From positions 1 to 5,108 of the forward strand of contig JAEDNJ010000120.1 in assembly GCA_016302525.1 (NCBI GenBank): DNA of 5,108 nucleotides. Direction: 5' to 3'. Positions 1-5,108 of the stretch are shown one piece after another. The position numbers and the translations under genes are program-made. The first letter of the stretch is position 1. Each line of letters starts with the position of its first letter. Below the pieces are notes generated by a model that saw only the letters and a list, made by a program, of their open reading frames with translations, was not told the origin of the DNA and did not search any database. The stretch is from Phascolarctobacterium sp. Lineage in GTDB: Bacteria; Bacillota; Negativicutes; Acidaminococcales; Acidaminococcaceae.

Positions 1-872
1 ACACGCACACCCATAGCCTGTTCAATATTACGCTGCTGTGCAGGGCTCAGCTCATCATCAAAAATGCACAGGTCAATGTTTTCCTGCTGTACGAATAAAG
101 CTAGCTCCTGCACCTTGCCCTTGCCGATAAAGAAGGCTGGGTCGGGCTTAGGACGCTTCTGGAGAAAGCGAGCCACTACCTGGGCACCAGCGGTATCAGC
201 CAGCTGTTTGAGCTCCTCTACGGAGTCCTCAAGGCTCCAGCCCAGCATATTACCCATACCACTGTATTCCATGCCTACAAGGATAGCCCGCTCCTGTACC
301 TTAGCCAGACTAGAAGAAGCGCTCTGCTTATCTAGGATACGCTCAATCATGGCCATCATATTAGGCAGATGGATGTTTTCAGCCTGCTCTAGGGTTAAGA
401 CATCAGTACATTCGACTATATAATTTTCGTTTTCATCAAAGCCGGCAATCATACCAAAGGTAACAAGGCTTTTTTCAAACTCAGGCACGACACCAATGGC
501 CAGCATACAGTCAAAGCGATTGTTCTTAAGCGCAGAAATATCCACACCGCTCAAGGTAGGATTTCCACCTGGATGTGTGTGTAGACAACGCACACCACTC
601 AAACGGCTAGCTCCCCTTCTGCCCTCCACTGCTGGCAATTCAACCGTATTGTCGTCGCCAACAATAACATTGAGAATTTGTCCACTGCGGTTAATATAAA
701 CAGAAATCTCTCTGCCGATGAAGTCGGTAATACGAGCCATTTTTACGGCCAGCTCCTGACTGAGCAGCTGACCATCATGGAGCTCTAGATCATAAATTGT
801 CTTTAGGTCCTCAATAACCGAATTGCGTATGCCCTTTAGGTTACCCTGGACCTCTTTTTCTAATTCACTCAT
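1..872 (-). CDS. hflX: GTPase HflX with N-terminal JAMM/MPN-like extension (3' end cut by window)
   Basis: HflX is a cytosolic GTPase that binds the 50S subunit and splits stalled or idle 70S ribosomes, for example after heat or antibiotic stress. Only the first 290 codons are visible, and the frame is open to the left edge. Residues about 195-290 match the HflX N-terminal domain, including FIGKGKVQEL, the conserved DDELSPAQQRNIEQAMGVRV segment and a preceding ERAILVGM. The G domain lies outside the window. Residues 1 to about 190 are extra compared with short HflX proteins such as that of E. coli. This part starts GNLKGIRNSVIEDL and contains E55 (in GREISVYI) and HTHPGGNPTLSGVD at 98-111. 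That is an exact H-x-H-x7-S-x2-D JAMM metal site, very like RadC. The start ATG (870-872) lies 23 bases after the helicase stop, behind a GGGGG ribosome site; upstream in-frame codons offer no better start. The HflX assignment is firm. Metalloprotease activity is inference. Confidence 0.94.
   Translation of the reverse strand, partial: MSELEKEVQGNLKGIRNSVIEDLKTIYDLELHDGQLLSQELAVKMARITDFIGREISVYINRSGQILNVIVGDDNTVELPAVEGRRGASRLSGVRCLHTHPGGNPTLSGVDISALKNNRFDCMLAIGVVPEFEKSLVTFGMIAGFDENENYIVECTDVLTLEQAENIHLPNMMAMIERILDKQSASSSLAKVQERAILVGMEYSGMGNMLGWSLEDSVEELKQLADTAGAQVVARFLQKRPKPDPAFFIGKGKVQELALFVQQENIDLCIFDDELSPAQQRNIEQAMGVR
328..780 (-). other. JAMM/MPN-like (RadC-like) domain within HflX
   Basis: Protein region about residues 32-181 of the hflX product. 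Seen directly: a candidate catalytic glutamate E55 on a predicted strand (REISVYINRSGQILNVIVGD), then H98, H100, S108 and D111 in HTHPGGNPTLSGVDIS, then a hydrophobic strand (FDCMLAIGVV). The RadC family shows the same layout, with a motif of the form HNHPSGDPTPSxxD. In JAMM enzymes the two histidines and the aspartate bind zinc, and the upstream glutamate activates water. All of these positions are present here, so the site looks intact rather than decayed. The domain boundaries are approximate, and no substrate can be inferred from sequence. Confidence 0.75.
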
Positions 873-2537: not shown

Positions 2538-3776
2538 CTAAACCTGTTGTAATTTATCTAACATCATATTAATCGCAGCCTGAGCTATACGCAGCTTATT
2601 TTCTGTGCGATTACCATCAAAATGATGCTCCTGCCAATACACAAGAGTGCGATTAGCAACAGCAATATAAACCAAGCCTACAGGCTTGCCCTCACTCATG
2701 CCGGGTCCAGCGTTGCCTGTAATACTAATGCCATAATCTGTATCCATCAGCTTACGCACGCCAGCGGCCATTTCACAGGCACACTTGCTGCTCACAGCGC
2801 CTGGATTTTTGAGGGTTTCAGGGTTTACCCCTAGAACCCTTTCTTTTATTTCGTTGGTATAGCTTACCACGGAGCCCTTAAGATATTCCGAGCTGCCAGC
2901 TATATCTGTAATCAAGCTAGAAGCCAGACCACCGCTGCAGGATTCAGCAAAGGCGATAGTAGCGTGCAAGGCCTTAAGCCTTTCACCGAGGATGGCAGCA
3001 GGACTGTCATTATCTGCACCATAGATGTACTTAGCGAGGCTAGCGCGTATTTTTTCTTCTACGCTAGCAATGAGCTCCTTAGCCAGCGCAGGACTAGCAG
3101 CCTTCGCTGCAATGCGAATGAGAATTTCGCCATGGCGAGCATAAATAGCAATAGTAGGATTGCTCTGCTTAAGGATTAGTTCATCAATACGTGTTGCCAC
3201 AGAAGATTCGCCAATGCCCCGTAAACGCAGGGTTCTGGTAATGAGAACACCATTTTCGGGGAAGCGCTGCATAAGGCGGGGCCACAGCTGCGTTTCGCAC
3301 ACTGCCTCGACCTCATGGGGCGGGCCAGGCAAAAGAATGATGATTTTGCCCTTATGCTCCAGCCAAAGACCAGGAGCAGTGCCAGCAGGATTTTCTAGCA
3401 CATCTGCTCCAAAGGGAACAATAGCCTGCTTTTCATTGTTGGGCGTAGGGGTAACACCCTTCGCCGCAAGGAAATCATAAATGCGGCACAGCGTGCTAAA
3501 ATCTGAATAGCCCTCTAAGCCACAGAGCTCCATGACGACTTCCTTCGTAATATCACCGCGAGTAGGTCCTAAGCCACCGCTAGTGATGACAATATCGGCA
3601 CGTCCTAAGGCGTGCTCAATAGTTTCACGCATACGCGAGGGATTATCGCCCACAGTAGTTTGATACAAAACATCAAAGCCCAGGTCATTTAAGTGACGAG
3701 AGAGATATTGAAAATTAGTATTTAAAATCTCGCCTAATAATAGCTCTGTACCTGTATTTATTACCTCAACTACCAT
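2538..3776 (-). CDS. cinA: CinA, MoCF-like domain plus NMN deamidase (PncC) domain
   Basis: A full-length CinA of 412 residues, the usual size of the two-domain family. Residues 1 to about 170 are the MoCF-like (COG1058) domain, with GTELLLGEILNTN (9-21), SGGLGPTRGDITKE (66-79), NEKQA (114-118) and LLPGPPHEVEAV (148-159). This domain is linked in some members to ADP-ribose pyrophosphatase activity. A KH-like linker spans about 175-250. Residues about 257-408 are the C-terminal amidohydrolase, with ESCSGG (278-283, candidate catalytic S279), YTNEIK (306-311), TGNAGPG (353-359) and KPVGLVYIAV (364-373). This domain converts nicotinamide mononucleotide to nicotinic acid mononucleotide, recycling the NMN released by NAD-dependent DNA ligase. 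The ATG at 3774-3776 has a strong ribosome site 7 bases upstream. The gene follows rimO by 28 bases. In many Bacillota pgsA sits between rimO and cinA and recA follows; neither is present here. The family is certain. A role in competence is not implied. Confidence 0.97.
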   Translation of the reverse strand: MVVEVINTGTELLLGEILNTNFQYLSRHLNDLGFDVLYQTTVGDNPSRMRETIEHALGRADIVITSGGLGPTRGDITKEVVMELCGLEGYSDFSTLCRIYDFLAAKGVTPTPNNEKQAIVPFGADVLENPAGTAPGLWLEHKGKIIILLPGPPHEVEAVCETQLWPRLMQRFPENGVLITRTLRLRGIGESSVATRIDELILKQSNPTIAIYARHGEILIRIAAKAASPALAKELIASVEEKIRASLAKYIYGADNDSPAAILGERLKALHATIAFAESCSGGLASSLITDIAGSSEYLKGSVVSYTNEIKERVLGVNPETLKNPGAVSSKCACEMAAGVRKLMDTDYGISITGNAGPGMSEGKPVGLVYIAVANRTLVYWQEHHFDGNRTENKLRIAQAAINMMLDKLQQV

Positions 3777-3783
3777 GGTCTTT

Positions 3784-3789
3784 CCTCCC
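3784..3789 (-). promoter_or_regulatory. Ribosome binding site of cinA (GGGAGG)
   Basis: The minus strand reads AAAGGGAGGAAAGACC before the ATG. This strong Shine-Dalgarno core, 7 bases from the start, supports the chosen start. It lies wholly in the 28-base gap after the rimO stop codon, so cinA has its own translation signal. Confidence 0.88.
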
Positions 3790-3804
3790 TTTAGATACTC
3801 TTCT

Positions 3805-5108
3805 CTACTCTGCTTCCACTAGCTCAGCAACCATACCATTGGAAAAGCCCTGAGAAATTTTAATGGTCACAAAGTCTCCAACCTCTAAATGCTCTGCTCC
3901 TTCAACATAAATAGGATTATCAACCTCAGGTGCTTCGTGCTCACTGCGAGCATCAGCAATGCCATCCTCACCAAAGCCGACGATGACGGCCTTCATGATT
4001 CTGTCCTCCTTCTCGCGGTAAATCTCCTGCGAGATAGCAGACTGGATAGCCTTAAGCTCGTGGAAACGATTCTCCTTGGTTTCCTCATCAATCTGGTTTT
4101 CCATACGGCCTGCCTCTGTGCCATCCTCCTGCGAATACATAAAGACACCAGCATCCTCAAAGCGTTGCTTCTGCACAAAATCCTTGAGCTCTGCAAAATC
4201 CTCCTCTGTTTCACCGGGGAAGCCCACAATAAAGGTAGTACGAATAGTTATATCAGGAATACGAGCGCGCAGCTTAGCTAAGAGCTCCTCTACCTGAGCG
4301 CGTGTGTCTCTACGTCTCATGGTTTTCAGCAGTCTGTCACTAGCGTGCTGCAGGGGAATATCAATGTATTTGCAAACCTTGGGCAGAGTTGCAAAGCATT
4401 CAATAAGCTCATCCGTAAAGTTGTTGGGATAAAGATACATAACACGAATCCATTCCAGGCCTTCAATGTCATTCAAATCTCTTAAAAGCTGGGGCAGCAT
4501 GAGCTTTTTGTAAAGGTCAAGGCCATAGACGGTAGTATCCTGAGCAACAACTATCAGCTCTTTAACACCACTGGCAACTAAATCCTTAGCCTCCTGCAAC
4601 ACATCCTCATATTTTTCGCTGACATATTTGCCACGAATAAAGGGAATAGCGCAGTAGGAGCAGCGATTGTTGCAGCCCTCAGCAATTTTTAAATAAGCCA
4701 TATAAGAATCGGTTGTCAGCATACGAGGAACGGCTTTCACATTTTTGCTGGTCATTTCACTGAGCTTTTCTAAGTGCAGCAAGCGCTCGCCAGCCATAAC
4801 CCTATCAATTACCCAGCCTATATCGACAAAGCAGCTAGTTCCTACAATGGCATCAACCTCTGGCATAGCTTCAAAAAGCTCATCTGCATAGCGTTGACCG
4901 AGGCAGCCCGTCATAATTAAATATTTACAGCTGCCCTGCTCCTTGTATTGAGCCATTTCTAAAATAGTATCAATAGATTCCTGCTTAGCGCTTTCAATAA
5001 AGCCACAGGTATTGACAATAATAATATCTGCTTCCTCGGGATTATTGGTAATCTCATATTTTTTTTCACGTATAATTCCCAGCATGACTTCGGAATCTAC
5101 AAGATTCT
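3805..5108 (-). CDS. rimO: Ribosomal protein uS12 methylthiotransferase RimO (5' end cut by window)
   Basis: RimO is a radical-SAM enzyme that adds a methylthio group to the beta carbon of a conserved aspartate of ribosomal protein uS12. The frame is open to the right edge, and the first visible residues NLVDSEVMLG continue the family's typical SLGCSK start. About 12 N-terminal residues, including the first cluster cysteine, are therefore missing. The internal ATG at 5083-5085 is not the true start. Counting from that methionine, the MTTase domain shows C28 (VNTCGFIESAK) and C61 (TGCLGQRY). The radical-SAM CxxxCxxC is at 138-145 (EGCNNRCSYCAIPFIRGKY, C138/C142/C145). Further core segments are IDIPLQHASD (241-250) and TTFIVGFPGETEEDF (283-297). 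A C-terminal TRAM domain spans about 363-426 and ends in a distinct acidic run (ELVEAE). NTCGFIESAK and IPFIRGKY fit RimO rather than the tRNA enzymes MiaB or MtaB. It is the most promoter-proximal gene visible in the apparent operon. Confidence 0.97.
   Translation of the reverse strand, partial: NLVDSEVMLGIIREKKYEITNNPEEADIIIVNTCGFIESAKQESIDTILEMAQYKEQGSCKYLIMTGCLGQRYADELFEAMPEVDAIVGTSCFVDIGWVIDRVMAGERLLHLEKLSEMTSKNVKAVPRMLTTDSYMAYLKIAEGCNNRCSYCAIPFIRGKYVSEKYEDVLQEAKDLVASGVKELIVVAQDTTVYGLDLYKKLMLPQLLRDLNDIEGLEWIRVMYLYPNNFTDELIECFATLPKVCKYIDIPLQHASDRLLKTMRRRDTRAQVEELLAKLRARIPDITIRTTFIVGFPGETEEDFAELKDFVQKQRFEDAGVFMYSQEDGTEAGRMENQIDEETKENRFHELKAIQSAISQEIYREKEDRIMKAVIVGFGEDGIADARSEHEAPEVDNPIYVEGAEHLEVGDFVTIKISQGFSNGMVAELVEAE

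Follow-up and report, generated by a model that had tools for sequence, protein, structure and literature searches.

HflX and the JAMM/MPN+ proteins are both well-known families. In its GTP-bound state, HflX enters stalled 70S ribosomes and splits them. The JAMM/MPN+ consensus associates an upstream glutamate with the motif HxH-x7-S-x2-D; in the enzymes of this type, both histidines and the aspartate bind zinc, the glutamate, which is not a zinc ligand, activates the water molecule, and the serine steadies the transition state or the intermediate. The AMSH, AMSH-like and Sst2 deubiquitinases are ubiquitin-specific and eukaryotic and, unlike the protein described here, carry no GTPase fusion. 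Among the archaeal members, which include AF2198, PfJAMM1 was solved together with the ubiquitin-like protein SAMP2, according to the title of its entry. RadC differs from the present protein in being a separate gene with its own front part, made of UPF0758_N and a helix-hairpin-helix. On the HflX side, the mycobacterial protein also bears an N-terminal addition that acts on the ribosome; at 39-58 residues, however, this extension is too short for an MPN domain, and it is described as a contact element in the available part of the article (PMC12493154).

The window analysed in this work, a stretch of 5,108 nucleotides from a Phascolarctobacterium genome, contains four genes on the minus strand, defined by the reading of open frames, Pfam and NCBIfam: rimO (3805-5085), cinA (2538-3776), a DEAD-box RNA helicase gene of the CshA/DbpA type (896-2488) and, downstream of the latter, hflX (3-872). 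The helicase matches the Pfam families DEAD, Helicase_C and DbpA, and scores 616 bits against NCBIfam CshA, whose cut-off is 646. This gene order is an ordinary translation-linked neighbourhood. It is found again at locus L001, in a Phascolarctobacterium MAG, where hflX is complete (619 aa) and is followed by a gene of the methionine gamma-lyase family and by one resembling lexA. The hflX gene of the window exceeds the left end of the stretch and encodes residues 1-290 of a long-form HflX, of which residues 1-190 share 88% identity with the L001 protein.

The affiliation of this protein to HflX is indicated by the GTP-bdg_N domain at residues 215-290 (3-230, minus strand; PF13167, E 1.3e-26) and by a partial match to TIGR03156, with 79 bits for the truncated part present in the window; a full-length relative in genome G001 reaches 495 bits for a cut-off of 216.75. 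The ordinary HflX sequence starts at about residue 193, in agreement with the initial annotation, which had placed a further domain before the HflX N-domain. The extra N-terminal region corresponds to residues 1-195 (288-872, minus strand), as delimited by the phylum survey presented below and by a comparison with short HflX proteins without it: in 39 such proteins from this phylum, the core is preceded by 0 to 71 in-frame residues. The long protein shares with TIGR03156 and with the solved structures 5ADY, 8A57 and 8VIO the N-, middle and GTPase domains, the GTRGPGE loop motif and the P-loop. The matched solved HflX chains align from profile position 172 onward only, and leave the JAMM domain of about 190 residues uncovered.

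Residues 98-111 of the window HflX (540-581, minus strand) read HTHPGGNPTLSGVD and match the motif H-x-H-x7-S-x2-D, with E55 (708-710) placed 43 residues ahead of H98. The codons of the other four residues lie, on the same strand, at 579-581 (H98), 573-575 (H100), 549-551 (S108) and 540-542 (D111). All five residues are kept in the 31 sequences of a first alignment, A1, composed of the window, L001 and 29 further genomes; these are the best-scoring 29 of 38 matches, so that A1 leans towards intact members. A second alignment of 123 sequences, A2, equally made of best matches, contains eleven invariant columns, namely E55, R62, G64, G72, R95, H98, T99, H100, P101, S108 and D111. The A1 profile was also run against 398 genomes of the phylum, of which 75 matched; after the removal of two RadC proteins, recognized by Pfam in G101 and by reading in G269, 73 HflX-borne domains were left and were all read. 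The complete set of catalytic residues is intact in 60 of them. The JAMM signature claimed by the initial annotation at residues 98-111 is therefore borne out by direct reading, by this conservation and by a profile match to Sst2: it is real, beyond a chance match. The same annotation had proposed E55 as the catalytic glutamate, and its invariance in A1 and A2 suggests that this was the right residue, with a predicted role of general acid/base.

The homology of the domain with JAMM peptidases can be detected in several ways. When the A1 profile was compared with the PDB, the nine distinct sequences matched under E 1e-3 (range 3e-4 to 9.5e-4) were all AMSH-type peptidases, headed by the AMSH-like protease Sst2 (3e-4) and including the AMSH-like protease (8e-4); in the Sst2 alignments, the HxHP-x6-SxxD motifs are in register with the A1 profile. 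The A2 profile retrieved HflX cores, and AMSH weakly (E 0.13), probably because it contains many HflX-core columns. In Pfam, at E values up to 1, Prok-JAB was matched by 18 of the 31 A1 members (best 5.5e-5) and RadC by 10 of the 31 (best 5.5e-4). The window taken alone scores 13.9 bits, under the 25-bit cut-off, and the true RadC of G101 is likewise below this cut-off of 25 with Prok-JAB (20.7 bits, E only 4e-4). The PADLOC JAB models give a weak match (best E 6.8e-4), and the hhalign comparison with the G101 RadC reaches a probability of 93.8%, with HTHP aligned on HNHP. The domain nevertheless falls outside RadC proper: the A1 members match the RadC JAB weakly and show no front-part family (UPF0758_N, helix-hairpin-helix), and the window yields no Pfam match to RadC at E up to 10, whereas the G101 RadC obtained 165 and 100 bits.

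The structure prediction leads in the same direction. The AlphaFold2 model of the domain has a pTM of 0.78, its best PDB rows are JAMM/MPN proteins, and the predicted MPN/JAMM fold extends over residues 33-168 (369-776, minus strand). The best E in the Foldseek comparisons is only 5e-4, the TM-scores lie at about 0.2-0.3 and the rmsd is large; the VIA-align Z values are all below 8, a range for which the program cautions that a widespread arrangement may be enough. The fold check suggested by the initial annotation, a comparison of the predicted structure with JAMM/MPN proteins, is thus answered by an MPN-like prediction. Taken together, the AMSH profile match, the weak Pfam and PADLOC JAB and RadC matches, the hhalign result and the model point to a predicted MPN+ domain in the first 190 or so residues of the long HflX, which combines the signature, the predicted MPN fold and a detectable sequence homology with the JAMM/MPN+ family.

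The GTPase part of these proteins is well preserved. All survey genes but one contain the P-loop and the DTVGF motif (72 of 73 for each); the remaining gene, L137, stops at a contig end. The columns of the P-loop, DTVGF and NKxD are invariant in a third alignment of 30 sequences (A3). In a sample of 199 genomes, HflX exceeds the curated cut-off in 157 and the domain is present in 40, with an intact site in 35 and a broken one in 5. Each of these 40 genomes has a single HflX (E up to 1e-40), which makes the long form the main HflX of these organisms rather than an accessory copy. The class search revealed one genome, G402, with two HflX (G402:C1:2319754 and G402:C1:3554402, loci L156 and L157), both with the domain and intact sites.

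A predicted flexible linker (residues 186-190; 303-317, minus strand) appears to connect the JAMM domain to the HflX N-domain. In the model of the full-length L001 protein, which aligns with the window without gaps across this region, the pLDDT falls below 50 at residues 186-190, and the overall pTM is 0.59. This floppy segment, the difference between a pTM of 0.59 and the value of 0.78 for the domain, and the biology of HflX suggest a tethered hydrolase operating during ribosome rescue. The preferred reading, to which a probability of roughly 55% is given, is that of a long HflX with a predicted zinc-dependent MPN+ domain, likely delivered to stalled ribosomes and cutting a peptide or isopeptide bond. 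This type of bond is preferred on account of the nine PDB sequences under E 1e-3, which are peptidases without exception. By analogy with the JAMM enzymes, H98, H100 and D111 would hold the zinc, E55 would activate the water and S108 would steady the transition state. As expected from the biology of HflX, the GTP-bound protein would bind the stalled 70S ribosomes and split them, and the tethered domain may then cut a polypeptide that is stuck there, or detach a conjugate, as the subunits part. The predicted place of the domain is the intersubunit face of the 50S, a position extrapolated from the mycobacterial extension of 39-58 residues, which is unrelated to the JAMM domain. According to the available part of PMC12493154, this extension, located immediately ahead of the core, contacts uL16 and helix 38 of the 23S rRNA and extends as far as helices 69-71. 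In the minority of lineages devoid of the metal site, the domain would probably be only a binding module, in the manner of the MPN- proteins.

These lineages deserve particular attention. In 13 of the 73 survey domains the site is broken, with the loss of H98 in all 13 and of H100 in 12, and the domain is retained. Five of the 13 display YLT where HTH is expected, seven display FTR or FTK with E55 and S108 kept, and L109 alone has preserved the histidine aligned with H100 and lost the other four residues. The possibility of a free variation of the site among long HflX proteins, considered in the initial annotation, is therefore not confirmed: 60 of the 73 domains keep the complete set, and the other 13 have lost H98, together with H100 in 12 of them. 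One more broken domain, that of G151, escaped the A1 profile and came to light on inspection of long frames; broken forms may be undercounted, since this profile was built from intact members. In total, 14 of the 89 domains scored are broken (H98 lost in 14, H100 in 13), and all 14 keep G64 and the GTPase P-loop. The corresponding loci are L103, L104, L107-L109, L111 and L145-L152, in genomes G118, G040, G180, G153, G178, G151, G383, G322, G300, G278, G345, G205, G324 and G302. On a tree of the HflX core, the broken form requires three changes, one of them forced, and falls into two groups with strong support, besides G178 and G151; one origin or several losses may both account for this pattern, as each is compatible with the tree. 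Judged by sequence, an MPN+/MPN- split exists inside one HflX family, and the 13 broken survey members, together with G151, imply that catalysis is dispensable in some lineages.

The broken forms are also an argument for the main rival explanation, in which the MPN domain is a non-catalytic scaffold, or a module binding rRNA or protein, that helps HflX to grip or split the ribosome, any zinc being only structural. The 14 broken domains with their preserved G64 and P-loop are consistent with it, as is the mycobacterial extension, which aids splitting by contact alone in the available part of PMC12493154. The intact members, however, argue against a purely structural role. The class search added 15 further loci, 14 intact and one cut off at its contig end, and the 75 intact sequences now gathered (60, these 14 and the window) have a median pairwise identity of 31% and a minimum of 17%. 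Ten of the 190 positions never vary in this set (G10, E55, G64, G72, H98, T99, H100, P101, S108 and D111), five of the ten being the very criterion by which the intact group was selected. The full set, including E55, persists in 60 of the 73 survey domains in spite of this divergence, and neither E55 nor S108 is needed for a structural zinc site. The scaffold explanation probably holds in the broken lineages; for the family at large it is considered unlikely, albeit a serious competitor.

Less probable still is a zinc hydrolase that would act at the ribosome on a non-peptide substrate, such as a tRNA ester or a small metabolite. The relatives of the domain in sequence and fold include RadC, for which we know of no settled biochemical activity or function, and the JAMM fold is shared with the cytidine deaminases; both facts leave some room for this alternative. 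Against it stand the AMSH-type peptidases, the sole PDB matches under E 1e-3 (9/9), and the domain showed none of the features of a nucleotide or tRNA enzyme.

The domain is present in many Bacillota. Beside the 73 of 398 phylum genomes, the profile matches 47 of 60 genomes of the class and 37 of 41 of the family, nearly all in frames of the length of a long HflX. In three genomes of the family (G453:C77, G454:C145/C205 and G473:C25), all the frames that contain the domain are short or interrupted, which may reflect broken genes, sequencing errors or contig ends. The invariant residues are present in named members such as Selenomonas, Sporomusa and Phosphitispora. Outside the phylum, the domain is found with an intact site in a Fusobacterium animalis record annotated as GTPase HflX, and a second Fusobacterium record matches the profile. 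The F. animalis gene (L200; NZ_CP077186.1, 153558-155360) belongs to a complete record labelled as a 219-kb plasmid, and is surrounded by a shikimate kinase gene and other chromosomal-looking genes. An assembly fault or a fortuitous motif, which a four-residue pattern could in principle produce in a long protein, is refuted by the phylum, class and family counts as well as by this complete record, and its probability is negligible.

On the same HflX-core tree (90 rows), the presence of the domain requires 5 changes, versus a mean of 30.3 after shuffling, in line with a linked inheritance of domain and core; the strongly supported branches force a single change, and the changes may be gains or losses alike. 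In IMG/VR, one contig matched the domain profile: L199 (IMGVR_UViG_3300010167_001092), filed as viral, encodes a complete JAMM-HflX of 607 aa at 3001-4824 and is probably bacterial host DNA. A search for stand-alone versions with A1, which admits proteins of roughly 110-345 aa only, returned 135 proteins; the ten that were read look like the beginnings of HflX proteins that have been cut, frame-shifted or made chimeric. A stand-alone form of the domain may exist, P0145 and P0163, each of which stands for many sequences, being candidates.

The genomic context was searched for partners and substrates. Prp is the protease that trims L27, and a replacement of this enzyme by the JAMM domain was considered. 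The Prp family (PF04327) is present in 162 of the 199 genomes: 29 of the 35 with an intact JAMM-HflX, all five with a broken one and 128 of the 159 in which HflX gave no match. The two proteins coexist with no exclusion, and the presence of Prp in 29 of 35 intact-domain genomes speaks against such a replacement. The intact JAMM-HflX genomes absent from the PF04327 match rows are G024, G107, G126, G171, G179 and G182. Of the neighbourhoods examined, from eight further genomes and L001, some have the usual miaA-hfq-hflX arrangement; in L191, L194, L195, L197 and L001, hflX adjoins a gene of the methionine gamma-lyase family. A defence-related reading was rejected: the PADLOC JAB matches are weak, and no defence gene was noticed by eye in the eight neighbourhoods.

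Unlike the case of PfJAMM1 with SAMP2, no conserved ubiquitin-like partner of JAMM-HflX was found in the neighbourhoods examined. No E1-like, E2-like or ubiquitin-like gene was detected by Pfam among the three other genes of the window. Ubiquitin-like neighbours occur in one of the eight further neighbourhoods, whose genes were identified in part by Pfam and in part by eye. In this genome, G112, two ubiquitin-like beta-grasp genes lie immediately upstream of JAMM-HflX on the same strand (L192, 5883-6435): a ThiS of 88 aa ending in GG and a Ub-Mut7C of 97 aa, preceded by an aldehyde ferredoxin oxidoreductase gene. The pair is regarded as a coincidence: G112 has eight such matches, and in the other two genomes of its family the beta-grasp genes are located elsewhere. 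A scan of the loci gathered by then for frames of 60-120 aa ending in GG returned the G112 gene and a few chance-looking frames.

No description of a JAMM domain on HflX was found in the open-access papers searched. The available parts of PMC12493154 and PMC6310831 contain no account of a JAMM-HflX, that of PMC10502375 associates HflX with JAMM only through the word 'jammed', and 'hflx' occurs 0 times in the available text of the JAB-domain survey PMC1779556. The Pfam lists for 343 homologues, read by eye, mention no JAB family. Within these searches of the open literature, JAMM-HflX is, on the basis of its sequences, a new architecture that combines an apparently conserved catalytic site with natural pseudoenzyme offshoots. 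As a more tentative proposal, it may be a quality-control enzyme in which a splitting GTPase is united with a JAMM domain of the deubiquitinase type, so as to remove a conjugate or clip a jammed polypeptide on the 50S, its MPN- offshoots mirroring the Rpn11/Rpn8 pair.

HflX is studied for its splitting of ribosomes, and the JAMM domain lies outside the solved structures that were matched. If this domain is active, a sizeable share of the Bacillota (40 of 157 genomes with HflX, 35 of them with an intact site) would couple the splitting of ribosomes to a hydrolysis step for which no report was found in these searches. The defined active site and the naturally broken variants make the existence of cuts during bacterial ribosome rescue a testable proposition, which, if true, would provide bacterial JAMM domains with a cellular role beyond RadC and the ubiquitin-like operons.
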